This document shows positions 2,442 to 34,137 of a stretch of 37,541 nucleotides of DNA, in pieces. Positions within the stretch are counted from its first letter, which is position 1. Each line of letters opens with the position of its first letter. Source of the stretch: a virus; IMG/VR virus record IMGVR_UViG_3300022871_000048, positions 1-37,541 of that record, one strand, 5' to 3'. A program made the translations under genes and the position numbers. The notes beneath the pieces are model-generated. The model was given only the letters and a program-made list of their open reading frames with translations. It was not told where the DNA came from and made no database searches.

Positions 2442-2717
2442 TTATACGCACCCGCCACAACAGCCTTTTCTCACATTCTCATTTACAATTTTTTCAGCTT
2501 CTTCTTTTAGTTCTTCTGGAAAGTTTTCTGGAAAAATGCCTATTGTCCAGTCACCTTCTTCTACATTCTCGTTACAATCATCATCAAACCAAACGCTACC
2601 GTCAGAGCTTAAACAATAATCAGGGAAAGTAACCACAGCCCCATCAAGTTTCATTTTTAAAGTTCCTGAGCATAAATTAGGATATGCACCATCATAAGAA
2701 ACAAACTCAAGCTTCAT
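2442..2717 (-). CDS. Conserved phage-type hypothetical protein with CCGGC tail
   Basis: 91 residues when started at 2717, where GGAGG lies five bases upstream; an ATG four codons earlier is too close to be served by it. It begins MKLEFVSYDGAYPNLCSGTL, a beta-rich pattern I associate with small conserved phage proteins of unknown role. It ends in KGCCGGCV, a cluster of three cysteines around two glycines that could bind a metal. It is the first gene after the promoter at 2759-2786, so it heads the ERF transcript. Confidence 0.65.
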   Translation of the reverse strand: MKLEFVSYDGAYPNLCSGTLKMKLDGAVVTFPDYCLSSDGSVWFDDDCNENVEEGDWTIGIFPENFPEELKEEAEKIVNENVRKGCCGGCV

Positions 2718-2758
2718 AACAACCTCCAAAAATGTTTAAATAATCAAATCGCAAGTAC

Positions 2759-2786
2759 ATAATACCACAATGGTTTGTTATGTCAA
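2759..2786 (-). promoter_or_regulatory. Sigma-70-type promoter for the recombination operon
   Basis: Read on the minus strand: TTGACA (2781-2786), a 16-base spacer, then TATTAT (2759-2764), followed about 40 bases later by the gene at 2717. The -35 is perfect and the -10 has one mismatch. The -35 and the 13 bases upstream of it are part of a 19-bp sequence repeated at 34734-34752. Confidence 0.7.
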
Positions 2787-2799
2787 GTAAATAATCATT
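2781..2799 (-). repeat. 19-bp promoter box, copy 1
   Basis: The plus-strand sequence tgtcaagtaaataatcatt is identical to 34734-34752. Read on the minus strand it ends in the -35 hexamer TTGACA, so both copies place the same A/T-rich 13 bases immediately upstream of a -35. It could be an UP-element-like or operator sequence giving common control of two early transcripts. Confidence 0.6.
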
Positions 2800-2819
2800 T
2801 TATTTTAAATTGCTAGGAA

Positions 2820-3173
2820 CTACTGAACTTTATTGAAAGTAACGAGGATATTTTCAGTGCCTATTTCCCTTATATGTGAGATATTCCGGATATGTTTATA
2901 TCCATCGGAAGGGAGCTTTTCCATTTTAACAACTGCATCTAAAATGAACTTGACTGCGAAGGAAACATTATCAGTATCCTTCCTTTTATCTTTAGTTGTC
3001 CAGACAATTACAAGATCGTACTGACAATTTTCTAGTTCTAACTTTTTGCAGAAATACCCGATATTGTTAGTGAGGTCTTTCTTGATCTTGCTTGCTTTGA
3101 ACTTGTTAGTACGTTCAGCGTTTATATATTCGTTTAGGGATATGAGGGAAAAGGGGATAGTGAAGGTGTTCAT
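2820..3173 (-). CDS. rusA: RusA-family Holliday-junction resolvase
   Basis: 117 residues from the ATG at 3173, which has GGAG six bases upstream; an in-frame ATG at 3185 is possible. The protein begins MNTFTIPFSLISLNEYINAE, matching the RusA start (short strand, then a loop with asparagine). It contains the acidic motif KDKRKDTDNVSFAVKFILDA around residues 64-83, where RusA proteins have the catalytic aspartates, then LPSDGYKH. RusA enzymes are about 120 residues and cut four-way junctions, here probably resolving recombination intermediates made by ERF. A terminator-like hairpin directly upstream may limit its expression. Confidence 0.8.
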   Translation of the reverse strand: MNTFTIPFSLISLNEYINAERTNKFKASKIKKDLTNNIGYFCKKLELENCQYDLVIVWTTKDKRKDTDNVSFAVKFILDAVVKMEKLPSDGYKHIRNISHIREIGTENILVTFNKVQ

Positions 3174-3185
3174 TAGAAACTCCAT

Positions 3186-3239
3186 AAAAAAAATACCCCC
3201 TGTCGTGCAATCTATCACAATATTGATAAATTCAGGGGG
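3186..3239 (-). terminator. Hairpin plus U-run upstream of rusA (terminator or attenuator)
   Basis: On the minus strand CCCCCTG (complement of 3233-3239) pairs with CAGGGGG (3196-3202). An inner TATCA/TGATA hairpin sits in the loop. The stem is followed by TATTTTTTTT (3186-3195), the form of an intrinsic terminator. The U-run ends at the first possible rusA start codon (3185). The GGGGG of the stem is also the only purine-rich site for that start, so the same structure could hide a ribosome site. Confidence 0.65.
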
Positions 3240-3284
3240 CAAGTTGTATCGTTTAAAGAGCGGATTACAGTATATCACTAAATA

Positions 3285-3330
3285 GACCCCTACGCAAGAA
3301 TGGGGTCAAGAAAGTTTGGGAAAGTTTGGG
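3285..3330. repeat. Inverted repeat and 10-bp tandem repeat between lipoprotein and rusA genes
   Basis: GACCCC (3285-3290) and GGGGTC (3302-3307) form a six-base inverted repeat with an 11-base loop. Immediately beside it aaagtttggg occurs twice in tandem (3311-3330). The non-coding stretch between rusA and the lipoprotein gene is about 170 bases and holds only these elements and the hairpin at 3186-3239. They could be protein-binding sites; no function is shown. Confidence 0.4.
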
Positions 3331-3346
3331 AATGGTTCGAGGTGAA

Positions 3347-3631
3347 CTACTTTTTAATAACTATTTCGCAGGATTCTTTAATGTTTACTATCTCAGTTAT
3401 TGGTCGACCGTCCGATCCAATTTCAAGTGAGCACTCATAAGTAGACCCGTCCTTTTCATAGTAGCCTAAACACTTTGTATCAAGGATAACACCGTCAAGG
3501 TTTTTCAATCCTACTGTGCAGGAAAGTGCATCCCCTGATTCTGTTAAAAGTTTAAAAGTGTTGTTTGTATCAATCTGAAGCGTTGCGCAACTAATACTAA
3601 AAATCATCAATGCAATAATAATAAATCTCAT
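3347..3631 (-). CDS. Small lipoprotein
   Basis: 94 residues with a GGAGG site before the ATG at 3631. The N-terminus MRFIIIALMIFSISCATLQ has a basic residue, a hydrophobic core and a lipobox-like SIS-C, predicting cleavage before Cys15 and lipid attachment. The mature part is short and beta-rich with three further cysteines (SCTVG, TKCLG, YECSL) plus SCEIV near the end, which could form disulfides. It lies just after the lysis-like genes, so an outer spanin is possible. It lacks the proline-rich character of Rz1, so superinfection-exclusion lipoprotein is an equal alternative. Confidence 0.6.
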   Translation of the reverse strand: MRFIIIALMIFSISCATLQIDTNNTFKLLTESGDALSCTVGLKNLDGVILDTKCLGYYEKDGSTYECSLEIGSDGRPITEIVNIKESCEIVIKK

Positions 3632-3640
3632 AGATACCTC

Positions 3641-3748
3641 CTATTTTCCTTTAGGTTTACAATTACCTTTACCTCTGCCGGTTCTAGGGCCAGCACCATT
3701 AGGACCCTTACCATCAAGTTTCTTTTTCGGTCTAGCCTTTGCTGTCAT
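3641..3748 (-). CDS. 35-residue GPNG/TGRG mini-protein (DUF5320-like motif)
   Basis: 36 codons with an AAGGAG site before the ATG at 3748. The stop is at 3641, just ahead of the lipoprotein ribosome site. The product is very basic. Its core GPNGAGPRTGRGKGNC follows the pattern GPNGxGPxTGRGxGxC that I know from the N-terminus of the small DUF5320-type proteins. Here it stands alone, with a lysine-rich start and end. A single cysteine remains. Its role is unknown; nucleic-acid or metal binding would fit the composition. Confidence 0.6.
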   Translation of the reverse strand: MTAKARPKKKLDGKGPNGAGPRTGRGKGNCKPKGK

Positions 3749-4495: not shown

Positions 4496-5701
4496 TTAAT
4501 TTGTAAGACCTGAAATGTTTGTTATTAAATTGTAGCCTGTTTTTGGGGGTTGTGTTTCATAAAATATTCCATTAGCTGTTACTCCCTCAATATATAGCGT
4601 TATGGGCAAATTCTTACCTTCAGCATCTCCAACTATTTCTATTGTTATACTGTCTAAATCATCATCAACACCAGGATTAATTCTTGTACTTGTGATATTT
4701 ACATTAACATCGTATGTACCTACAAAAGCACTATCCATTAAACCCTCTATTGCAGTTTTAAGGTCTGCATTAGACACGTCGGAGGCGAGTCCAGCTGTTT
4801 CATAAGCACTTGTTGAATTGGACGGTAAGTTTATTGTGAAAGCACCAAACCCAAGCACGTTAAGCCCAGAATATAATTTCTGTCGTTGATTCATAGCTCT
4901 ATCTACCCAGTAATCATCATCATCTATTGATACTAGTCCACTAAGTCCACATACCATGCTGTTAGCATTAAGAACATATCCTTTAGAGTTAGTTACTACT
5001 GAGCCATATACTGTAACCATTGGAGTTCCTACCAGTAGTCTGGTGTCTCCATCAGCTTTTACAAGTGAAGGAAGGTCAGTACCAGTTGCAGCAGTATTAG
5101 AAAATGTTATAGCAGTTGAACAAGCAACATTAACACTTGAAACACTATCAAAAACCCTTATACAAGAGCAATCAGCTACCCAGTCGTTGCCAACTACTAA
5201 GGGAGCGTCTACAACTATATCATCACCCTGTATAAATAAATTGGCTCCACGATATAAATTAAATCCATAAAGATTATTTTCTCCTGTATCGGTATATGAA
5301 ACAAATTTAATATCAGCAGCTAACGGAGTGAAATGACGCAGTATCTGTACTGTTTTACCTATCATATCTATATCAGCATCTATTTCATAAACACCTATTT
5401 CTGCTAATTTAACTCTTCCATAACCACCATCTTCAATAAGGTCAACAGCGTGTTTAATAGTTTTGAACGGATAGGTAGCTGTTCCGTCATTTCCATCATC
5501 TCCGCTTGTTGTCTCTACATAATAGGTTTGTCCAAAGGCACGGTCTACGAACTGCTGCCATTCAGTTATAATGGCTAATTGATAATTAAGGAATTTAGAA
5601 GGAACTAGATCGGTGGTTTTGTATCCGTCTGTTCCTATCGCTGCTGGGTCGGTTTTATTTCCTGTTGCCGTCCATGTTAAGTTTTCGGTTGGTTTAGTCA
5701 T
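4496..5701 (-). CDS. Tail spike/fibre with pectin-lyase-like beta-helix
   Basis: 401 residues from the ATG at 5701, which follows GGAGG by seven bases. After a 65-residue N-terminal part, likely for attachment to the baseplate, comes TTSGDDGNDGTATYPFKTIK. This is the entry motif of right-handed beta-helix (DUF1565/pectin-lyase-like) proteins in phage spikes. Then follow repeated short strands and turns to about residue 290 and a beta-rich C-terminal domain. The protein should act in receptor or polysaccharide binding. The reading frame continues upstream through a perfect lipoprotein signal without an ATG (see findings). Confidence 0.75.
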   Translation of the reverse strand: MTKPTENLTWTATGNKTDPAAIGTDGYKTTDLVPSKFLNYQLAIITEWQQFVDRAFGQTYYVETTSGDDGNDGTATYPFKTIKHAVDLIEDGGYGRVKLAEIGVYEIDADIDMIGKTVQILRHFTPLAADIKFVSYTDTGENNLYGFNLYRGANLFIQGDDIVVDAPLVVGNDWVADCSCIRVFDSVSSVNVACSTAITFSNTAATGTDLPSLVKADGDTRLLVGTPMVTVYGSVVTNSKGYVLNANSMVCGLSGLVSIDDDDYWVDRAMNQRQKLYSGLNVLGFGAFTINLPSNSTSAYETAGLASDVSNADLKTAIEGLMDSAFVGTYDVNVNITSTRINPGVDDDLDSITIEIVGDAEGKNLPITLYIEGVTANGIFYETQPPKTGYNLITNISGLTN

Positions 5702-5767
5702 CTCATCGCCTCCGCAAGAAATCATAAGTAATAAAATAATCAATAAAATCTTTTTTATAATCGCACC

Positions 5768-6235
5768 TCATGCAAAATAATCCGTATCAAAATACGAGAC
5801 ATCAAACCTCGCTGTAGTAGAATTATATGCTAAAACGTCAATTACTGCAACTCCAGCAGGAAGTACAGCTTTTAATAGTTGTATGTAAATTAACCTCATA
5901 TCGTCCGTTAGAGTACCTTCAAACTGAAATAGGATAGCTGCATCATACTCTTTACTTTCCGCTGTTGAACCTAAAAGTATCTGGGCTATTGCCTCTGTAT
6001 CAGGGAAAGTTCCAAGTGCCACGTTTGCAGCTGCCTGACCTTTTATAAACGTTCTCAGGGTATCGGTATCAGCTGATCTTATCTTTAATCCTACCATATC
6101 AGCTATTTTATCAAGTGGCACACCTTCCTGAGCATCTATATCATAAGCGGCGAATAACGAGAATAAAGAATCTTCTAAATCCTGTAACTGATTAGTTAAA
6201 AAAGCGTCTACTATCTCTGCTAGTTTAATTTCCAT
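5768..6235 (-). CDS. Baseplate wedge protein, Phage_Wedge1 (DUF2612)/gpI-like
   Basis: 155 residues. The first part is helical (EIVDAFLTNQLQDLEDSLFS). Then come GVPLDKIADMVGLKIRSADT and LRTFIKGQAAANVALGT, the layout of the DUF2612/Wedge1 family. Its members link the baseplate wedge to the tail fibres, like P2 gpI. The C-terminal 30 residues end SYFDTDYFA. The usual order (J, then the gpI-type protein, then fibre) is interrupted here by four fibre-like genes. The TGA stop is part of TGAGG, which forms the ribosome site for whatever starts next. Confidence 0.7.
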   Translation of the reverse strand: MEIKLAEIVDAFLTNQLQDLEDSLFSLFAAYDIDAQEGVPLDKIADMVGLKIRSADTDTLRTFIKGQAAANVALGTFPDTEAIAQILLGSTAESKEYDAAILFQFEGTLTDDMRLIYIQLLKAVLPAGVAVIDVLAYNSTTARFDVSYFDTDYFA

Positions 6236-6238
6236 AAT

Positions 6239-6622
6239 TTACCTGTACTGCTGAAATATATAATTTTTATAAGCTGCTTTATCCTGATATGCGGTATCAA
6301 ACTGGTTAGTACAATCACCACTTAATGCTGCTGTAGTTTCTGCTGTTGCGTCTGAATCGGTTGTCAAGGTTGCTGTGTGACTTCCTATGGTAGTTGGCCT
6401 GAAAGTTATAATAACAGAAGAAGTATTGTCAGGTGTGAAACTTTCGGCTGCTTCATAAATTGTTCCTGAGAATGTTCCTGTACCTGTAGGTAATTCATCT
6501 AAGACAGCGACCGCAGTTGGCATATTAGCACTGTCACCCTGTGTCCATGTCGCCGCTGTTGTAGGGGTCGCATCGTATACTCCGTAATATATTCCGTTTG
6601 GATTATTTATCGTTATATTCAT
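6239..6622 (-). CDS. Small beta-sandwich (ASH/Ig-like) fibre component
   Basis: 127 residues. Residues 55-105 contain FRPTTIGSHTATLTTDSD and TAALSGDC, the pattern of bacterial ASH/HYDIN-like Ig domains, where a proline- and glycine-flanked strand pair precedes an L-G-C end. The last 22 residues are helical and tyrosine-rich (YQDKAAYKNYIFQQYR). It is packed three bases before the Wedge1 gene. It probably acts as an adaptor or accessory adhesin of the fibre complex; specific function is unknown. Confidence 0.55.
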   Translation of the reverse strand: MNITINNPNGIYYGVYDATPTTAATWTQGDSANMPTAVAVLDELPTGTGTFSGTIYEAAESFTPDNTSSVIITFRPTTIGSHTATLTTDSDATAETTAALSGDCTNQFDTAYQDKAAYKNYIFQQYR

Positions 6623-8464
6623 CTATACCCCACTAATATCTACGATCATTGGGACGAGCTTTTGAACTTGCGTGTCATCTCCGAGCATTCCCCAATGGTT
6701 GTATCCCCACCCGTAGAATACGTCATCGTCACCAACTGCCAACACATACCCTAGTCCAACCGAATAGCTTACAATTGTTTTTCCAGAAAGAACATCAGTC
6801 ATATCTACCGCAACGGGTGTTTTTTGATTGTATATTTGAGTACCATCACCAAGTGCACCACCAAGCCCCCCATCGCCCCAAGAGTAAAGTTTTCCATCTG
6901 AATCTTGTACTGTGACACTAAACCCACCGCTGACAAATTCTATAGTTTTTCCAAAAAGAACACCAGCAGAATACACCGCAACTGGAACCATTCTAGGGGT
7001 AGTTGTTGTGTTATCTCCGCATTCTCCTCTGTTATTTTTACCCCAACTGTAAACTTTACCGGCAGAATCTATCGCATAAGAATTGAAAGCACCACAACCT
7101 ATTGCTGTAATTGTTTTTCCATAAAGAACACCAGAAGTATCCACTGCTACTGGAACAGTATAACTGTCAGTTGTAGAGTTGTCTCCAAGTTGTCCATAAC
7201 TATTCCATCCCATCGTGTAGACAACACCATCTGAATCCAACATAACAGCATGGTAAGCATTTGCAGACACCTTAATACTTGTTATCGTTTTACCGTTAAG
7301 AACCCCTGAAGTATCAACTGCGACTGGCACACTACTGCTATAGCCTCTTGCGCCCCAAGAGTAAAGTTTTCCATCTGAATCTAATGCAAGTGAATAATCA
7401 TAGCCAGCTGCGATCTGAGTTATCGTTTTACCGTTAAGAACCCCTGAAGTATCAACTGCGACTGGTTCGTCTCTTGTAGTTGTTGAATTGTCTCCAAGCT
7501 GTCCGCTAGCGTTATCGCCCCAAGCATAAACTCTTCCATCTGAATCTAAAGCCAGTGAATGCAGCCGACCACAAGCTACTTGTACTATTGTTTTCCCATT
7601 AATAACGCCTGAAGCGGTAACGGCAACTGGAAGGTTGCTACCAGTTACGCTGTTATTTCCGAGCTGTTCTTCAGCATTACTACCCCAAGCGTAAACAACA
7701 CCGTCAATTATTCCTAGGGAATGTTTATACCCGCCAGCCATAGAGTAGTAAGTTACAGAACTAATTACGTTTACATCGTCAAGTTGGTCTCTTACTGTTG
7801 GATAATCAGCATCAGTTACAAGAAAGTCATACGTTCCTGAGGCTGGCATTGTTCCTGTAGCTGTCCAAGCATTGGCGATTACCGTAATTCCAAAATTAAA
7901 TTCTGTCCACAAGGTATCTGTTGAAAGTCGATAATATACGTTTACTGTTGTGACAAAAAGCGAAGTTCCAGTAATATCACCCTCAACTCCTGCCGTCAAT
8001 ACTGGAGTGGTCATTGTCAAGGTGGCGTAAATATGAGAAGTTGTTTCGTCATAAACAAGGACATTATCATAATCTTCAACTTTCAAATCTATATTATCAC
8101 CAATTGCAAAATCGCTATTCAAAAGCGCAAAGTATAAAAGCCCTGAAACGTCAATTTTTTTCCCAATTTGTAAATATGTTCCACTGCTTGTTTTCTTCGC
8201 ATATATATTGACATAATTAACACTGTCGAGAGTACATTCTGTTGTAAATTTCAGGAACTGTATCAGCTCTTCCGCCGATTCGTAAACATCACCCTGTACG
8301 AAAACTTCGTTCGTTACTGAAACCCAAATATCTTCTGTTTGTGGTATATATCTCAATACTGCTAATTTGGTGGGTTCTGTTGGATATGTAACTTGTTCAT
8401 TACTGGCATCAACTGGAACAACTCTTGTCCCGTTTAGTGCTGATATTTTTACTGATACAGTCAT
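6623..8464 (-). CDS. Tail adhesin with seven-blade RCC1 beta-propeller
   Basis: 613 residues from the ATG at 8464 (GAGG six bases upstream). Residues 1-148 are a beta-rich N-terminal domain. Residues 150-236 are an Ig-like module (LTAGVEG...SGTYDF) also found in the gene at 10419. From residue 238 to the end there are seven RCC1-type repeats, each of the form I-x-x-V-x-x-G-x-x-H-S-L-A-L-D-S-D-G-x-V-Y-x-W-G-x-N-x-x-G-Q-L-G. Examples are LHSLALDSDGRVYAWGDNAS and FNSYAIDSAGKVYSWGKNNR. Seven is the full count for a closed RCC1 propeller. Propellers bind ligands on their faces, so receptor binding is the likely job. Confidence 0.8.
   Translation of the reverse strand: MTVSVKISALNGTRVVPVDASNEQVTYPTEPTKLAVLRYIPQTEDIWVSVTNEVFVQGDVYESAEELIQFLKFTTECTLDSVNYVNIYAKKTSSGTYLQIGKKIDVSGLLYFALLNSDFAIGDNIDLKVEDYDNVLVYDETTSHIYATLTMTTPVLTAGVEGDITGTSLFVTTVNVYYRLSTDTLWTEFNFGITVIANAWTATGTMPASGTYDFLVTDADYPTVRDQLDDVNVISSVTYYSMAGGYKHSLGIIDGVVYAWGSNAEEQLGNNSVTGSNLPVAVTASGVINGKTIVQVACGRLHSLALDSDGRVYAWGDNASGQLGDNSTTTRDEPVAVDTSGVLNGKTITQIAAGYDYSLALDSDGKLYSWGARGYSSSVPVAVDTSGVLNGKTITSIKVSANAYHAVMLDSDGVVYTMGWNSYGQLGDNSTTDSYTVPVAVDTSGVLYGKTITAIGCGAFNSYAIDSAGKVYSWGKNNRGECGDNTTTTPRMVPVAVYSAGVLFGKTIEFVSGGFSVTVQDSDGKLYSWGDGGLGGALGDGTQIYNQKTPVAVDMTDVLSGKTIVSYSVGLGYVLAVGDDDVFYGWGYNHWGMLGDDTQVQKLVPMIVDISGV
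7281..7465. repeat. 47-bp identical direct repeat between RCC1 blades
   Basis: Positions 7281-7327 and 7419-7465 are identical (47 bases), and a second tract is identical between 6874-6905 and 7351-7382 (32 bases). Both fall in the strand and turn codons of neighbouring propeller blades. Such exact identity in repeats that otherwise differ in protein sequence suggests recent blade duplication or gene conversion. Confidence 0.8.
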
Positions 8465-8465
8465 T

Positions 8466-10406
8466 TTAAACCTCGGTTTCAAAAGCAAAAGATATTATTT
8501 CGCTTGCCCCATTTATTATCGTGATCGGTGTCGAGAGTATCACCCTACACAATAAGCCGTTAACGGATTGTATTCCCACTTCTTTTATCGTTATGCTTGC
8601 CCCAGAATTGTTAATGAAATTCCTTGCGATCTTCATACTCGTCTTATCGCCAACTGTTGCAGGTTCGGTTGTTGTGCTGGTATCGGGGCAAACTCCGTAC
8701 TCAAGCTGTCCTGCTCCTGTTCCATGTGCTATTTTAGTAGCAAGTGCTGTATCTGTGGATGTAAACCCTGTTGTTCCTGTTCCAACCAATATGCCCATAC
8801 TATCATCTGTGATAACTGCTTTTGATACCAATTCCTTTCCGTAGCTCCAGACATCATCTTCTTGACTGCCATCATTTCCAGCTATTAACCACATCTTATC
8901 TTCATAAAGTATAGCTGTTGATCCTTGCCTTGCACTAAATCCAGCCAAAGCCGTAGCTTGTAACCAAGTTATCCCATCCGATGAACTCCAAACATCTCCC
9001 GTATTGCTTCCATCATTACCTGTTATTATCCACATTTTATCTTGAAACGTAACAGATGCCATGCGTACCCTTGCTGTGAATCCTGCTGAAGATGTTGCTT
9101 CTGTCCAAGATGAACCATTAGATGAATACCACACATCATTTAATTTTGAACCATCATCACCGCCAATAATCCACATTTTTGAATCAAACACCAAAGATGT
9201 TAACTGTTGCCTTTGTGAAAATTGTGTTGCTGGGGGTGTAGCATCATCAGCTAACACTTCTGTCCAAGTAACACCATCAGGGGAGCTCCAGACATCGTTG
9301 AATATATATAATCCTGTTGCTGTGCCGACACCACCAATTACCCACATTTTTTCACCTGAACCATCATCAAATACCATTGCGGTGTGCGAGTTTCTTATAT
9401 CAAATTGTGTTGCTGGTGGAGTCGGATCATTTGCTAATTCCTCCGTCCATGTTGCTCCGTCAGTGGAACTCCAAACATCATTGTAATCGGCATACCCCGA
9501 AGCTCCAGCGTTACCACCTATAACCCACATTTTTGAATCAAACACAACGGAAGTGTGACCATATCTCACTGTAAACGGAGCTGTAACAGCTGCTTGCCAC
9601 CAAGTTATCCCATCCGATGAACTCCAAACATTATTCACTGAACCTGACCCTGAAAGTCCTCCGATAACCCACATTTTTGAATCATAGACTACCGCTGAAT
9701 GAAGGTATACGGCAACTATTCCAGAAGTTGCTGTTATCTCTTCCCAATTAATTATAAAATTATCAAGGAAGTCTTTAACAAAACCTCCCGCTGTTCCATC
9801 GAAGTCTACAACTATTGAATAAGTCCAAGTGCTTTTTTTGTTATTAAGCAAAGACACTGATACTAAATCTCTAGCAATAAGAACATTGCTGTTATATTCA
9901 CCCTCTGAACCACAAACAAGGCCTGACTCTTCAAGTGCTATCGTCCCTCCAGAAGTGTTTGATATTTCCCTTGTAATATCAAGTTTTATTGTGCTTCCAT
10001 CAACTGCGGGGGTTCCAATAATTGTAGCTCCATAAGTTAAATCAGACACAAAACTCAAAGCATAATCTGAGTTTGCAACCGCTCCTGATCCTGAGCCGAC
10101 ACACAAACCAAATTTTTGAACTGTTGAACCACCTGCCATATTCATTTTAGATACTGGCATATCTTCAATTGTTACGTCAGAATTTGCTAAATCTTTTGCT
10201 TTAACTGTTGCTGTGCCGTCCACCATGCCTCCAAAAAGTAAACGCATGAAGTTTGCAGAAAATGATTTAAACTCACCTTCGTGCATAATGTTGCCGTCTT
10301 CATCTTTTACAACTAGTTGTGATCCGTTTTTCTGGGTTTCATGCTTGTAGTTAAAACCGCTTAGTGTTTCGACTGACAATTTCAAGTTATGATTTCCATC
10401 TCTCAT
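8466..10406 (-). CDS. Tail adhesin with six-blade Kelch propeller inserted between two similar beta-domains
   Basis: 646 residues with an AAGGAG site. Residues 1-95 form the N-terminal part. Residues 98-203 are a beta-domain with FGLCVGSGSGAV, DITREISNTSGG and ESGLVCGS. Residues 235-525 hold six Kelch-type repeats, each H-S/T-A-V-V-x-D-S-K-M-W-V-I-G-G followed by DVWSSxDGxTW. Residues 535-646 repeat the first beta-domain (GILVGTGTTGF, KIARNFINNSGA, KEVGIQS). Six blades make a complete Kelch/galactose-oxidase-like propeller. The stop almost touches the RCC1 gene start, so the two adhesins are coupled. It probably binds a receptor or glycan; no catalytic residues can be assigned. Confidence 0.75.
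   Translation of the reverse strand: MRDGNHNLKLSVETLSGFNYKHETQKNGSQLVVKDEDGNIMHEGEFKSFSANFMRLLFGGMVDGTATVKAKDLANSDVTIEDMPVSKMNMAGGSTVQKFGLCVGSGSGAVANSDYALSFVSDLTYGATIIGTPAVDGSTIKLDITREISNTSGGTIALEESGLVCGSEGEYNSNVLIARDLVSVSLLNNKKSTWTYSIVVDFDGTAGGFVKDFLDNFIINWEEITATSGIVAVYLHSAVVYDSKMWVIGGLSGSGSVNNVWSSSDGITWWQAAVTAPFTVRYGHTSVVFDSKMWVIGGNAGASGYADYNDVWSSTDGATWTEELANDPTPPATQFDIRNSHTAMVFDDGSGEKMWVIGGVGTATGLYIFNDVWSSPDGVTWTEVLADDATPPATQFSQRQQLTSLVFDSKMWIIGGDDGSKLNDVWYSSNGSSWTEATSSAGFTARVRMASVTFQDKMWIITGNDGSNTGDVWSSSDGITWLQATALAGFSARQGSTAILYEDKMWLIAGNDGSQEDDVWSYGKELVSKAVITDDSMGILVGTGTTGFTSTDTALATKIAHGTGAGQLEYGVCPDTSTTTEPATVGDKTSMKIARNFINNSGASITIKEVGIQSVNGLLCRVILSTPITIINGASEIISFAFETEV
8963..9631. repeat. 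33-bp identical repeat between distant Kelch blades
   Basis: Positions 8963-8995 and 9599-9631 are identical over 33 bases, encoding the DGIT-W and preceding WSSSDG turn of two different blades more than 600 bases apart. Other blades match only partly. This mirrors the blade repeats in the RCC1 gene. Confidence 0.75.
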
Positions 10407-10418
10407 TTTATTTTCTCC

Positions 10419-11411
10419 TTATACGTCTGTTGGTGGCGAAGCAACGCACGTTGCATTCATTCCGAAAGTTCCCGCTGATTTACCTACGTCTATTGGGGGT
10501 GAAGCGACACATGTTGCATTCATTGTCAGTTTAGCGGTTTCGCTTGATTCTACTGTAACATCATCAACCTGTTTTTCTGCCACACCGTTCGCATCAGAAA
10601 CCTTGAAATCGTAAGTTCCTGATGTTGCAACTGTTCCTGTTGCCGTCCAAGCTCCTGCCACTATAACAATATCAAGATCAAACTCCGTCCAAGCTCCTTC
10701 TGGTGATGATACTCTATAGTAAGTGCTCACCAACAGACAATTCGCATTACCTGTTATGTTTCCCTCAACTCCTGCTGTAAGTGAAGGGCTGTTAATTGTT
10801 AGGGTTGCGATCGTATCAAGTCCGGTTACTTCATCGCTTGTTGCTCCGATTGTAGCTTCAACTTTTATGCTGAATTCGTCATTTGTAACAAATCCATCGG
10901 TTGCATTAAGCTGAAAAGTATAAGTCCCCAAACTGGCGTCAACATTGGAATAGACTTTTGAACCGCCTGAATCACCTGTAATTGTGATATTAACTAGAGA
11001 TACGGAGGATGAAACCCAGTTTAATGTTTGGTTAGTTTCAAGCTCAAAGTTGCCTGAAAGTGGCGAAGTAATTGAGATAGAAGGAAGCCCAAACCCTATT
11101 GTTGGAATTCCTGAACTGTCTGTTGTAGCAAAAGACCCGAACCCCTGATCGGTTGTAGCAAAAGAACCGTCTGAGTTTTGGACAGCTTTATTTGCATTAA
11201 CAAAATAAAGCGTTGAGTTGATAGGCATAGATGGTTCTACATTAGCTTGAATTGTTCCAACTGTGAAAAGAGTATTGTCACTTGCTATATCGGATAATGT
11301 AACTCTTTGTGTTCCAGTGTTATTGACTGAAAACGTTTCAGCACTTTCCTTAAATAACCCTGTATCTGAGTATTCTTTTGGAGTAGGTGTAATATTTATT
11401 ATCTTAGTCAT
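10419..11411 (-). CDS. Ig-like domain fibre protein with C-terminal 21-residue repeat
   Basis: 330 residues, threonine- and serine-rich, almost all beta. Residues 1-75 are an N-terminal part; residues 78-99 carry an imperfect GSFATTD repeat; residues 110-200 are an Ig/cadherin-like domain (SISITSPLSGNFELETNQTL). Residues 203-290 are the same module seen in the RCC1 adhesin (SLTAGVEGNITG...GAWTATGTVATSGTYDFKV). The end consists of two copies of MNATCVASPP with a 21-residue period. The gene starts at the stop of baseplate J. It is probably a fibre shaft or adaptor between baseplate and adhesins. Confidence 0.65.
   Translation of the reverse strand: MTKIINITPTPKEYSDTGLFKESAETFSVNNTGTQRVTLSDIASDNTLFTVGTIQANVEPSMPINSTLYFVNANKAVQNSDGSFATTDQGFGSFATTDSSGIPTIGFGLPSISITSPLSGNFELETNQTLNWVSSSVSLVNITITGDSGGSKVYSNVDASLGTYTFQLNATDGFVTNDEFSIKVEATIGATSDEVTGLDTIATLTINSPSLTAGVEGNITGNANCLLVSTYYRVSSPEGAWTEFDLDIVIVAGAWTATGTVATSGTYDFKVSDANGVAEKQVDDVTVESSETAKLTMNATCVASPPIDVGKSAGTFGMNATCVASPPTDV
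10423..10524. repeat. 63-bp-period tandem repeat at the 3' end of the Ig-like fibre gene
   Basis: Two imperfect 39-bp units (10423-10461 and 10486-10524) encode MNATCVASPP plus I/T-DV twice, each with one cysteine. A repeat right at the 3' end could vary in copy number between strains. Confidence 0.7.
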
Positions 11412-12622
11412 TATAAATTACCTATATCAATATTCCCTGCTATTATATAAGCTATTTCCGTGTCACCTATTGTTATATTATCAGAACTTGCAGGGGCGGG
11501 TGAAGTTCCAATTTTAATAGTATAATCTGTTATGTCTACGTTTGCAAAACTATTAAGTACGTCTGATAGACTGTCAGCACCGTATACAACCACGTTAGAA
11601 CCCATTGTAAGGGTCGCAGCCCACGTTATAATATCAGCTGTTAGAGCTGTTTTATTGTCTGCTGATAGTGTTGGTGAAGTATCTATATCTATGTATATGG
11701 TTTCAGTGTCAGCTCTTGAAAATGTAATTGATCGTACAGAGTTTCCTACTGTTATATCTTCTGAATAGCTTGCAGCGGTTGTTGTTACGGTTCTAATACC
11801 TTCGGGCTTACTCTTTGCAATTGCCTCGGCTATTTTACTGTCAGTGGTGGCATCAGCACCGCCAGCGTAATAAATTACGGGCTGTATAGTGTGTGCTCTC
11901 ATTCCGTCTACTGTTACATTTTCCTCATTCTCAATTAATTTAACTGCGGCGACTTCGGTATATCCTTCTGTATCTGCATCATCGTTAATATCTGTTATAG
12001 CGTTCTCGATAGCTGATACTCTGAGGGTTCTGGCAATTGTAGGTACTTGAAAAAGCCTTATTCTATATTCATCATCCGTTTCAAGATCAGTACCATTTAT
12101 AAAAGTTGAAGAAACTGAATTAGTACCGCTTGTAAGGTTTGCAGTCGGTGTAGCGATAATCGAAACATCATCGGTGGTAACGGTAGTCGACCCTGTATTT
12201 ATCGCTGTAACGTCAATTGTGTTAGCTCCCAGAGTCAAGTCTATATCTGCGACTGTCTGATATTCTGCATCAGGATCATTGGAACCCCTGAATATTGTTC
12301 CAGAGGCTAAAGTTATGCCCGCAGCAGCGACTACATTATAATCTCTAATATTCGCGTAAGTAGCGGCTAATCTGGGCTTACCGAGTAAAGCACCGATAAT
12401 GTCAAGCCCTATTCCTGTGGCTGTAAGTCCCATTTGTCCATATACAGATTCCGCAAGATCAAAGGCATCTTTAAGACCTTTAGCGTATATATCTCTAAGC
12501 TGTCCTAAGACTTCTTCAGGAAGTAGATTTACATAAGGGTCTATAGTTGTTTCAAACTCTGTTTTTTGTTCTGCCAGTATCTCCGCAAGGGTCTTATTGG
12601 TGAATCCTGTTGAATCAATCAT
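11411..12622 (-). CDS. Baseplate J-like protein
   Basis: 403 residues. The N-terminus has the baseplate-J layout: FTNKTLAEILAEQKTEFET, then LLPEEVLGQLRDIYAKGL, then GIGLDIIGALLGKPRLAA. The middle contains GTIFRG and ETDDEYRIRLFQ, and later KSKPEGIRTVT, all typical of gpJ/gp47-type wedge proteins that form the periphery of contractile baseplates. The C-terminal 120 residues are the usual alpha/beta domain. It overlaps the gp25-like gene by four bases. Confidence 0.85.
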   Translation of the reverse strand: MIDSTGFTNKTLAEILAEQKTEFETTIDPYVNLLPEEVLGQLRDIYAKGLKDAFDLAESVYGQMGLTATGIGLDIIGALLGKPRLAATYANIRDYNVVAAAGITLASGTIFRGSNDPDAEYQTVADIDLTLGANTIDVTAINTGSTTVTTDDVSIIATPTANLTSGTNSVSSTFINGTDLETDDEYRIRLFQVPTIARTLRVSAIENAITDINDDADTEGYTEVAAVKLIENEENVTVDGMRAHTIQPVIYYAGGADATTDSKIAEAIAKSKPEGIRTVTTTAASYSEDITVGNSVRSITFSRADTETIYIDIDTSPTLSADNKTALTADIITWAATLTMGSNVVVYGADSLSDVLNSFANVDITDYTIKIGTSPAPASSDNITIGDTEIAYIIAGNIDIGNL

Positions 12623-13197: not shown

Positions 13198-13917
13198 TTA
13201 TACCTTCATGGTGTTAAGGTTTGTCTTATCTACAGCTATGGCTGCATCATCAGCGGTTATGTTGCCTAAATCTGTTGTCAATAACGCTATCGTTGGCGGC
13301 GTAAACGGTGAAGACCCTAAAGCCGTAACGGTTGTAGCTGCCATAAGGTTAGTAGCAAGCAACTTGAGGTTTGTTGACAGGCTGTTTGTGTTGGTTATAA
13401 ATGAATAAATAACAGCTACCATTTCCTGAGTAGCACCTGAAATCTCTATCTTGCCGTCAGGATATAATATAATTGACATATCATTATTCCTAAACTCAGC
13501 GTTACCATCTATAGTTATCTTTTTTTGGTCGGTCTGGAAATCAGGTTTAAATTTGCAATCATCTATATTATGTGAGCGAGGGGATTCTACATCTACGGGG
13601 GTTTCATTGCCACCATCCATAAGTGCTGATATGTCATTATCATAAATGGTTATACTTCCTGTTGTTCCTTTCTTTACAGGAAAACGAATATAAGCATCTT
13701 CATAACTTGCAGGAAAATCAACATCAACATCGTAGAGCTCAACTAGTATATATTCACCTGTTATTTCATCTAAAGATTTTGTAAGCACTTCTAAATTAAC
13801 TGTACTATCAGAATTTAATTTAGTTACTACACAGGGAAGGGCTGATTTAGAATCTTTTACTCTTTTATTTACAAGTGATATTACAGCTTTTGCAAGGGGA
13901 CTACTCAACTTTTTCAT
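13198..13917 (-). CDS. Baseplate spike protein, Gp138-like
   Basis: 239 residues from the ATG at 13917, with GGGGG six bases upstream. Residues 25-110 look like the OB-fold of Gp138/gpV-type spikes: LPCVVTKLNSDSTVNLEV, later IRFPVKKGTTGSITIYDND. Then a short beta section (DMSIILYPDGKIEISGA) and a helical, threonine-rich C-terminus follow. Such trimeric spikes cap the tail tube and pierce the outer membrane. No histidine metal-binding tip (HxH) is visible. It overlaps the hub gene by 17 bases. Confidence 0.75.
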   Translation of the reverse strand: MKKLSSPLAKAVISLVNKRVKDSKSALPCVVTKLNSDSTVNLEVLTKSLDEITGEYILVELYDVDVDFPASYEDAYIRFPVKKGTTGSITIYDNDISALMDGGNETPVDVESPRSHNIDDCKFKPDFQTDQKKITIDGNAEFRNNDMSIILYPDGKIEISGATQEMVAVIYSFITNTNSLSTNLKLLATNLMAATTVTALGSSPFTPPTIALLTTDLGNITADDAAIAVDKTNLNTMKV

Positions 13918-14851
13918 GTGCAACCCCCGTCATTTTCCACATATCGCTTGCTTTATTCCCGCCTGTTCCTTTTAATTCAGTTATAGTAAACTTTTCATCA
14001 GAGATATAATCACCACTTGAGGTTTTAGCGTTTATTTGCACAGTTTTTGAAGGGTATAAATTAGGGATTAACTGGCATTCAAACTCTATGCCACCGACTT
14101 CTATTTTCTTACCCTTTGCATTTTTAAGGGTTACAAAGTTACGCTTAATAGATTTTAAACCAGTATAAGGGGCAAGCTCGACCGCTGTGTCCGATTCAGC
14201 GAACATCTTACGGATAACCAGTTCGTTGTTAATTATATCAGCTTCAAGACCTCTGGGGTTTAAAAGATCGTTCATTGATTTTCCTAATTTACCTAAAACA
14301 GTAAATCCTTTTTTCTTTCTTTTATCCTTCTGTTTTTTAGGTACGTCTATCTTATCACTTGATATAGCTTCATTAGTGAGCTTTTTAGCTGTCTCATATA
14401 CCTGAGCGGGCAACTCTACAAGAGCTGAGAACATAGCCCCCCCCATATCCTTTAATATATCCACAAAATTAGTCTGTTTAGTGTAAGCACCTTTAAAAAC
14501 CACGTCTTGTATACTATCACCTAAGACAAGTTTAATCTCAGTAGTGTTCTGCACCCTACCTACTGTGTAATCGGTTACTACACCTGAAAATAGAAGCCCT
14601 GTATTATCATCATAGCCTCCATTAACCTCTACAAATAGGGTTTTTGCTTTTTCTACACTGGTATAAAAACTTAAATCAGCGTTGTTGATTGTTATCTGTG
14701 CGGTGTCAGGTTCTTCTATTCTGCCTGTTCTGGCAAATCTAAACTTTATATGTAAGGGGTTTGAAGCATTTTCTTTAGATCCATATTCAGCTGTTAATCC
14801 TGTTGTTCTGTTTGTTACAGATACTTCTAATTTTCTATCTACATTAAGCAC
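13901..14851 (-). CDS. Baseplate hub protein
   Basis: 316 residues from a GTG start at 14851 that overlaps the upstream stop. The order of elements fits the tail hub family (Mu gp44/P2 gpD-like). It has an N-terminal beta region with DTAQITINNADLSFY, then LLFSGVVTDYTVGRV, a helical insert rich in lysine (KKQKDKRKKKG) around residues 171-187, and a C-terminal beta-barrel with FECQLIPNLYPSKTVQINA and TITELKGTGGN. The hub trimer joins tube to spike. No lysozyme domain is fused. Confidence 0.7.
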   Translation of the reverse strand: MLNVDRKLEVSVTNRTTGLTAEYGSKENASNPLHIKFRFARTGRIEEPDTAQITINNADLSFYTSVEKAKTLFVEVNGGYDDNTGLLFSGVVTDYTVGRVQNTTEIKLVLGDSIQDVVFKGAYTKQTNFVDILKDMGGAMFSALVELPAQVYETAKKLTNEAISSDKIDVPKKQKDKRKKKGFTVLGKLGKSMNDLLNPRGLEADIINNELVIRKMFAESDTAVELAPYTGLKSIKRNFVTLKNAKGKKIEVGGIEFECQLIPNLYPSKTVQINAKTSSGDYISDEKFTITELKGTGGNKASDMWKMTGVAHEKVE

Positions 14852-32560: not shown

Positions 32561-32951
32561 CTAACTTTGTAACCGCAGCAGCTCTTTTAATAAGTTCCTC
32601 TGTTGACATTCCTGAATAGTCTGCTTCAAAACTAATAGTTGTTTCCTGTCTAGGACTTCCAAACGCCCTTGTAAGTGCATATCCGAATATCTGGGTTAAG
32701 TCCCCCTTTGATACCCCTTTCTTTATCGCTTGCCCTATGAGGACTTCAAATGATTTAGATTTAGGGTTATCAATAATGGATTGTATCTCATCTTTATTCA
32801 TTGCCAGCATTTCAGATATGATGTCATTTATCTGGGATTGTTTTAGACCTTCTTTCTTGAGGATTGTCTTGAGGGCTTTGGGTTTTCCCTTGAGGTTTCC
32901 TGACTGTCCTTTCTTCCATTTATGCTTTGTTAGGTTCTCTGGATTAGGCAT
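32544..32951 (-). CDS. Terminase small subunit (DUF5681-type)
   Basis: 135 residues. The start TKHKWKKGQSGNLKGKPKAL is the DUF5681 motif (W-K-K-G-Q-S-G-N-x-x-G-K). It is followed by helices (KTILKKEGLKQSQINDIISE, MLAMNKDEIQSIIDNP), a basic GKGDLTQIFG-like loop and a C-terminal polar region. These proteins recognise the packaging site and load the large subunit. It overlaps the methyltransferase gene by eight bases and the large subunit by 17. Confidence 0.75.
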   Translation of the reverse strand: MPNPENLTKHKWKKGQSGNLKGKPKALKTILKKEGLKQSQINDIISEMLAMNKDEIQSIIDNPKSKSFEVLIGQAIKKGVSKGDLTQIFGYALTRAFGSPRQETTISFEADYSGMSTEELIKRAAAVTKLDESKD

Positions 32952-34137
32952 CGCTGTTTCCTCGCTGTTCCATTTCCACTATAATCTCAGGGTCAAGCTT
33001 CTTCATGCGATCCACTATCACTTGACAATATTTAGGGTCAAGCTCCATTCCATAACACTTTCTTTGTAGTTGGTGACAAGCTATCATCGTTGTTCCTGAA
33101 CCTAAAAATATATCTAAAATAGAATCCTTTTCTTTGCTCCCATGCCTTACGCATCTCTCGGTAAGCTCTATTGGCTTCTTGGTTGCATGGTGTTCATCCT
33201 TGCCCATCTTTCTTTGTATGTGCCAAACATCCGAATACTCCCTATTCCCTTGATGCGTTTCTAGTTGCGGTTTTCCTTTCTTGCAAACGTTTATTACTTC
33301 ATAGGTATATTTATAGTCAGAGCCTAACCCATGAACCATTTTGTCCCAAACTATAATATTTGATAAATGGAAGGTGTTCTTAATGTGTGGTATTAACTCA
33401 AAGTTTCTTCTCCAGTCGAGGCTTATATAAGCAACAGAATCGTCTTTCATAGCTATAAACAACGAGGCTATAAAGGCAGGCATAAAATCAGCCCATTCTT
33501 CGTCAGTAAAATTATCGTTAAAGAAGCCAGCCAGCCAGCCTGCGTTTTTACTATCCATGCCAGTATTATAAGGAGGATCTGTAAAAACCATATCAGCCTT
33601 CTTACCATCCATCAGCCTTTCAACATCATCTATTTTTGTTGAATCTCCACATAGAAGCCTATGGAGTTCTTTGCCGTCCTTTGAGAAAGTGAATAAATCG
33701 CCTAAAACTATATCGGTTTTTATTTCTTCAGGCTGTTCGTAATTGTCCTCTACTGCTTCTAATTGTTCAGGCTCAGTATCAAAAGGGAATCCGTCAAGCC
33801 CCCAGTCCTCAAGGTCTTTAGCATCCCAGTTATTAGCTAGTTCGTCCCAGTCCCAGCCTCCAGTATTAGCATTTAGTCTGATATTAAGTTCCTTTTCATC
33901 TTCAACATTCAGATCAACTATTACACAGTCTACTTCTTTATGTCCTAACTTCTTTAGTTCTCTTACCCTGAAATGACCGCCTACAATGTTGCTTGTCTGC
34001 TTATTATAGATTATGGGCTCTACTACTCCGAACTTTTCAAGGCTCGCTTTTAAATTGTCCTCTTGCTTTTGTGTGCTTGTTCTGGGGTTATACGGTGCTG
34101 GGTTCAAGTCTTTGATTTTCATCTTCTTTATTATCAC
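32944..34137 (-). CDS. ParB-like nuclease domain fused to DNA adenine/cytosine-N4 methyltransferase
   Basis: 397 residues from a GTG start with GAGGTGA upstream. Residues 5-75 are a ParB/sulfiredoxin-like domain: DLNPAPYNPRT, then VEPIIYNKQTSNIVGGHFRV. From about 155 comes a beta-class amino-methyltransferase with MVFTDPPYNTG (catalytic DPPY at 187-190) and the SAM-binding DIFLGSGTT (342-350). DPPY before FxGxG is the beta order. Expected reaction: methyl transfer from SAM to N6 of adenine or N4 of cytosine. Such fusions often sit beside terminases; protecting phage DNA or marking the packaging site are both possible. No restriction partner is seen. Confidence 0.85.
   Translation of the reverse strand: MIIKKMKIKDLNPAPYNPRTSTQKQEDNLKASLEKFGVVEPIIYNKQTSNIVGGHFRVRELKKLGHKEVDCVIVDLNVEDEKELNIRLNANTGGWDWDELANNWDAKDLEDWGLDGFPFDTEPEQLEAVEDNYEQPEEIKTDIVLGDLFTFSKDGKELHRLLCGDSTKIDDVERLMDGKKADMVFTDPPYNTGMDSKNAGWLAGFFNDNFTDEEWADFMPAFIASLFIAMKDDSVAYISLDWRRNFELIPHIKNTFHLSNIIVWDKMVHGLGSDYKYTYEVINVCKKGKPQLETHQGNREYSDVWHIQRKMGKDEHHATKKPIELTERCVRHGSKEKDSILDIFLGSGTTMIACHQLQRKCYGMELDPKYCQVIVDRMKKLDPEIIVEMEQRGNSDA

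Follow-up and report, generated by a model that had tools for sequence, protein, structure and literature searches.

The region 6623-11411 of the window, i.e., of the whole 37.5 kb stretch of DNA that was analyzed (IMG/VR record IMGVR_UViG_3300022871_000048, without terminal repeats), probably serves a small contractile-tailed phage as its variable cassette for receptor binding (adhesin cassette). It encodes two propeller heads of different type, one composed of RCC1 repeats and the other of Kelch repeats. Each kind of propeller is already known from other phages, but the pair is rare.

The window encodes a contractile-tail phage, with genes for portal (PF06381), major capsid protein (PF09950), tape measure protein (PF20155), sheath (phrog_205), hub (phrog_196), a gp25-like protein and gpJ (PF04865). 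The nearest relatives of its terminase, with 30-35% identity, belong to Bacteroidota phages, which is only a hint as to the host. Near the terminase gene, a fusion gene combining ParB-N with an N6/N4 DNA methylase was observed (32944-34137). After gpJ, the minus strand encodes in succession a 330-aa fibre, a 646-aa Kelch protein and a 613-aa RCC1 protein; a small gene, a DUF2612/baseplate-like gene and that of a probable spike come next (Table 1). The starts and stops of the cassette genes overlap or lie ≤12 nt apart, and in composition the propeller genes match the remaining structural genes of this phage. The earlier note on this DNA had given the coordinates of both propeller genes exactly. 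Its naming of baseplate J as a neighbor was confirmed, while its further labels for the surrounding genes proved weak: the "Wedge1-like" gene matched DUF2612 below the cut-off (2.4e-4) and a baseplate PHROG (phrog_1160, 4e-9), the "Ig-like" fibre gave sub-threshold Pfam matches (Y_Y_Y, E 0.2; FlgD_ig, 0.63), and the "beta-helix" spike matched DUF1565 (E 0.03) and phrog_16653 (1.5e-6).

Table 1. Features of the putative adhesin cassette and its borders, in order of transcription (res, residues).
Feature	Position	Strand	Evidence
gpJ-like baseplate wedge protein (borders the cassette upstream)	11411..12622	-	PF04865 1.4e-10, phrog_6 2e-26; 97% identical in L005
Headless fibre, 330 aa	10419..11411	-	ORF start overlaps gpJ stop
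N-terminal anchor of headless fibre, res 1-110	11082-11411	-	part of L005-homologous region
Two Ig-like stalk domains of headless fibre, res 111-292	10536-11081	-	Ig-like fold inferred, Pfam sub-threshold
Kelch gene (putative adhesin), 646 aa	8466..10406	-	PF24681 8.4e-25; AGGAG ahead of ATG, 12 nt after fibre gene
Phage "VGTG" domain copy 1, res 32-200	9807..10313	-	i-E 3.6e-23 with a profile built on the tandem proteins of L136-L138
Six-bladed Kelch propeller, res 220-525	8832..9749	-	AlphaFold pLDDT about 96, 24 strands
"VGTG" domain copy 2, without N-terminal third, res 526-644	8475..8831	-	i-E 1.8e-29; phrog_5417 3.4e-7
RCC1 gene (putative adhesin), 613 aa	6623..8464	-	PF25390 2.2e-81; starts 1 nt past Kelch stop
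Ig-like stalk of RCC1 protein, res 81-236	7757..8224	-	BLASTP 44% over 163 aa, E 2e-24, to stalk of headless fibre
Seven-bladed RCC1 propeller, res 237-613	6626..7756	-	AlphaFold pLDDT about 93; Foldseek UVR8 E 2e-36
Small baseplate-side protein, HYDIN/Ig-like (weak)	6239..6622	-	PF22544 E 0.02; L005 homologue 3' of fibre, 38% over 92 aa
DUF2612 / gpI-position baseplate protein, downstream border of the cassette	5768..6235	-	PF11041 2.4e-4 (below cut-off), phrog_1160 4e-9
Probable tail spike (beta-helix guess), after the cassette	4496..5743	-	phrog_16653 1.5e-6; DUF1565 E 0.03

The RCC1 protein matched PF25390 (E 2.2e-81) and PF00415 (4e-51) and contains seven WG motifs spaced by about 55 residues (at 257, 312, 367, 415, 471, 526 and 582). 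Its AlphaFold model is closed and was most similar to UVR8 (Foldseek TMt 0.91; VIA Z 52 over 357 residues), with HERC2 and RCC1 also among the nearest structures. Pfam, AlphaFold and Foldseek agree that seven RCC1 repeats close a seven-bladed RCC1-like (RLD) propeller, so that the full blade number claimed for this protein was confirmed. In the VIA comparison, among whose rows phi11 Gp45 did not figure, the phiKZ protein gp131C (4gbf) reached Z 18.4. The N-terminal 236 residues were predicted by AlphaFold with low confidence. The best PHROG match of the protein was phrog_4219.

The Kelch protein matched PF24681 (8.4e-25) and PF01344 (1.9e-14), with six KMW motifs at 244, 292, 353, 410, 457 and 504. 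In the AlphaFold model, six Kelch repeats close a six-bladed propeller, nearest to the Kelch domain of LZTR1 (Foldseek E 3e-20, TMt 0.80), and this propeller was likewise found to be as complete as the earlier note had held. The Pfam and Foldseek values exclude chance as an explanation of both folds. The nearest viral models are jumbo-phage proteins, some of them named virion structural proteins, and the top BFVD neighbor is named galactose oxidase. Both flanks of the propeller were predicted with low confidence by AlphaFold, and each carries one copy of a domain of about 190 aa, here called VGTG. It occurs in other virus contigs as tandem single-domain genes, one of which matches a tail-fibre PHROG (1.6e-7); the tandem genes at L137:5126-7750 and L138:3834-7630 are paralogous (L numbers denote contigs and loci of this survey). 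Insertion of the propeller into the second copy, just after the helix "GGFVKDFL", was considered but not supported: the joined flanks scored 102.3 vs. 101.4 without the segment, no better than shuffles, and copy 2 is therefore regarded as N-terminally truncated. Among the sheath genes of L017 (4536-9128), a phage protein of 1531 aa is encoded that contains about 17 Kelch motifs and whose C-terminal domains are relatives of those in the Kelch protein of the window.

The position of the RCC1 head was deduced from a near relative of the window phage, IMGVR_UViG_3300025698_000087 (L005), whose gpJ is 97% identical. Its fibre gene encodes anchor, stalk and RCC1 propeller in a single protein, and no Kelch gene is present on the stretch examined. 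Over the first 292 residues of the L005 fibre, the headless fibre of the window shows 78% identity; beyond them, the L005 protein runs into a seven-repeat RCC1 propeller with 50% identity to that of the window. Since the stalk of L005 is continuous with the gpJ-side anchor, this fusion shows the RCC1 propeller as the predicted tip of this type of fibre. In the C-terminal tail of the headless fibre (10422-10535), a short imperfect repeat (MNATCVASPPIDV...MNATCVASPPTDV) was observed where L005 has its RCC1 propeller. The arrangement in the window may have arisen by splitting and insertion, or that in L005 by deletion between two stalk copies. Behind its fibre, L005 encodes a small protein with a gp25-like sheath-initiator domain (PF10934) at its end and then a second J-like N-terminus (L005:12228-13060), which the window does not share; L005 has two gp25-J sets in a row or is an assembly chimera at this site.

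The tail genes of the window and L005 are mostly 91-100% identical, with one small gene at 87%. Within the cassette, identity amounts to 78% for the stalk, 50% for the RCC1 propeller and 38% for the small gene, and the Kelch gene lacks a counterpart; the drop occurs within the second stalk domain. Such divergence at the cassette is the pattern that would be expected for a variable receptor-binding module. Inside the RCC1 head, loops and strands diverged about equally (0.54 vs. 0.57). A second variable spot was observed at 13198-13923, where a spike-like gene between hub and gp25-like gene is 79% identical to L005 over residues 3-208, with an unmatched C-terminus and neighbors that are 97-100% identical.

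RCC1 propellers on tail-fibre anchors were also found elsewhere. In L009, a Tail_P2_I gene precedes the gene in which the propeller is fused to a tail-collar-fibre anchor (PF12571, 7e-40). In a Helicobacter prophage (L134), a gpJ-like gene (2676-3707) and its neighbor lie upstream of the RCC1 gene (5548-7047), which is the second gene after that neighbor. In Pseudomonas phage Ppr_SeaP3, the RCC1 gene follows the lytic transglycosylase gene, i.e., it occupies the position of T7 gp17, and its product matches the tail-fibre-assembly PHROG phrog_33642 and, weakly, PF03906. This protein and phrog_4219 resemble the window protein in that the RCC1 propeller forms the C-terminal part of a fibre-like protein; Ppr_SeaP3 differs by its T7-type anchor (the weak match) and T7-type gene order. 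Unlike P2/Mu- or T7-type tail fibres, the window proteins gave no Pfam match to the N-terminal anchors PF12571 or PF03906. The assignment of the region to a tail adhesin module by the earlier note was thus supported by the L005 fusion, by the divergence at the cassette and by RCC1 propellers on tail-fibre anchors in other phages.

RCC1 genes are common in IMG/VR contigs and often arranged in tandem. The combination with Kelch was found in none of 47 other whole IMG/VR records, and a Kelch profile search around the 79 loci of a second RCC1 survey (≤8 kb on either side) gave no match. IMG/VR scans with the window RCC1 and Kelch proteins alone did not find relatives, nor did scans of genome contigs with gpJ and with the stalk-RCC1 alignment. 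The RCC1-Kelch pair is rare in IMG/VR, but it is present in two Rak2-like phages.

Prompted by reports of Kelch proteins in phage CBB (PMC5259590), the cassettes of four Rak2-like phages of the Rak2-like/Mimasvirus group (CBB, GAP32, XbC2 and Hallingskeid) were read (L139:6369-17465, L140:301-2436, L141:359-10708, L142:7001-14759). RCC1 and Kelch genes are adjacent in XbC2, and in Hallingskeid a Kelch gene is followed by six RCC1 genes. Irrespective of the type of head (Kelch, RCC1, LamG or another), every cassette protein has the N-terminus M[LI]PF-R---YGN or one closely similar to it (tag M[LI]PF[APST]R...YGN), and the nine ORFs of the CBB stretch that start with the tag are the nine cassette genes. 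The shared tag is likely a docking peptide. The Kelch protein CBB_552 and the RCC1 protein GAP32_001 were found in virions by mass spectrometry (PMC5259590), and their genes adjoin homologous neighbors (CBB_553/GAP32_002, 31% identity). There is good evidence from this comparison that Kelch and RCC1 propellers can substitute for each other as virion-borne heads in Rak2-like phages.

The Rak2-like phages are similar to the window phage in having contractile tails and, in XbC2 and Hallingskeid, adjacent Kelch and RCC1 genes. Several of their cassette proteins are proven in virions. They differ by the 12-residue N-terminal tag common to their heads, the lack of a stalk, a number of head genes that reaches about 11 in one cassette and, in the stretches read, a location that is not next to gpJ. 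The N-termini of the three window proteins lack the tag and also differ from each other, without a common docking tag. Interchangeable heads, as suggested in the earlier note, thus receive support by analogy, as the same N-terminal tag bears RCC1, Kelch and LamG heads in Rak2-like phages.

Propellers have been described in phage particles before. Receptor-binding proteins or domains with this fold include phi11 Gp45, PRD1 P2, phiKZ gp131C and the K1F endosialidase (PMC4901313), so that the statement that propellers are not the usual phage receptor-binding fold was too strong. In S. aureus phage phi11, the propeller of Gp45 is the likely receptor-binding domain on the baseplate, as proposed here, but it has five blades, a triple-helix stem and a C-terminal tower, and there is one head type (PMC4901313). 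The phiKZ protein gp131C likewise forms a seven-bladed propeller and belongs to a contractile phage, where it lies at the periphery of the baseplate; it differs from the window RCC1 protein in its domain set and has 12% sequence identity to it. Proteins of phrog_4219 are present in virions of phage W70 (PMC11370258), and fibres with propeller lectins are known from eCIS (PMC12923769). According to the part of the source consulted, a structural protein of phage phAss-1 combines N-terminal Ig-like domains with a C-terminal propeller in one protein; it differs by its 1666 aa and its designation as a putative capsid protein, and that part gives no RCC1 or Kelch assignment (PMC10607447). No paper describing RCC1 and Kelch heads together was found in the literature searched; the CBB paper (PMC5259590) mentions both protein types in related phages. 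The view of the earlier note that this fibre architecture is not known to be described is accordingly true in part; RCC1 and Kelch virion proteins as such were already known (PMC11370258, PMC5259590).

Four other readings were weighed. It is unlikely, though the best of these, that the propellers are structural baseplate parts, serving as rigid spacers or gates like the T7 gp12 nozzle, whose seven-bladed propellers gate the channel (PMC6702177), or as peripheral elements like phiKZ gp131C, to which the RCC1 model is structurally similar. The scanned IMG/VR Kelch proteins are indeed mostly head-closure proteins of the podoviral nozzle type (L016, L025, L034 and L036; phrog_578 up to 8e-48, PF11134 weak in L034), but the window Kelch protein matched neither phrog_578 nor PF11134 in the Pfam and PHROG searches, and a conserved part would hardly be 50% identical or absent amid tail genes that are mostly 91-100% identical. 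Slightly less probable is the version of the earlier note, in which all three proteins are joined in a single composite, hetero-oligomeric device with Kelch and RCC1 heads acting together. The tight order of fibre, Kelch and RCC1 genes, which are probably translationally coupled, the stalk common to RCC1 protein and headless fibre, and the recurrence of RCC1-Kelch neighbors in two Rak2-like phages are consistent with it; the L005 stretch, with its RCC1 propeller fused to the stalk and no Kelch gene, and the absence of the gene pair from the other IMG/VR records tested speak against it.

Glycan-active enzymes of the depolymerase kind, comparable to the propeller endosialidases of K1F type, are improbable: enzymatic propeller tailspikes exist (cited in PMC4901313) and the name of the top BFVD neighbor of the Kelch propeller would fit, but the matches were to plain RCC1 and Kelch families, and the Pfam search detected neither a sialidase nor an S74 chaperone. 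Condensation of phage DNA by the RCC1 protein, as suggested by the authors of the phAPEC6 study (PMC7247149) and by the filing of phrog_4219 under DNA metabolism, was rejected as a mechanism and is hardly conceivable, as RCC1 members bear tail-fibre N-termini and sit in tail modules, and the annotation derives from the name of the eukaryotic protein. PHROGs 4219, 7220 and 16766, all named "regulator of chromosome condensation" and filed under DNA metabolism, include members with tail-fibre N-termini (L132, L133, L134); this category is misleading for these RCC1 PHROGs.

As a variable adhesin cassette, the region would operate as follows. Located between gpJ and the gpI-position gene, it would supply the particle with RCC1 and Kelch propellers as distal heads that bind molecules of the host surface. 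The RCC1 head would be carried on an Ig-like stalk of the type that in L005 is continuous with the gpJ-side anchor. In the window, anchor and stalk constitute a separate headless gene, and the RCC1 protein retains a stalk copy of its own. The Kelch gene has its place in between, and a virion-type domain is present on either side of its propeller. The two unlike heads may address two receptors per particle, or they may be the trace of a recent head exchange. The location counts against this reading, as P2 places its fibres after gpI, and so do the lack of a docking tag common to the three window proteins and the low AlphaFold confidence outside the two propellers; the probable spike (4496-5743) could be the main receptor-binding protein instead.

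Beyond the window, it is conceivable, though somewhat less likely than the opposite, that contractile phages in general employ RCC1 and Kelch propellers as interchangeable heads for receptor binding, and that one particle can present both kinds next to each other. Small phages (with an Ig-like stalk next to gpJ, as in the window) and Rak2-like jumbo phages (with a docking tag shared by the heads) would have acquired them independently, and the annotation of RCC1 proteins as DNA-condensing would have caused them to be overlooked. The present analysis identifies both propellers as likely heads of tail adhesins of contractile phages and explains the misleading annotation "regulator of chromosome condensation". 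The window phage and L005 form a natural pair, and the Rak2-like phages provide a tagged cassette, in which head exchange may be tested. Since propellers are robust and well-studied binding scaffolds, the receptor range of such heads would be accessible to ordinary binding assays.
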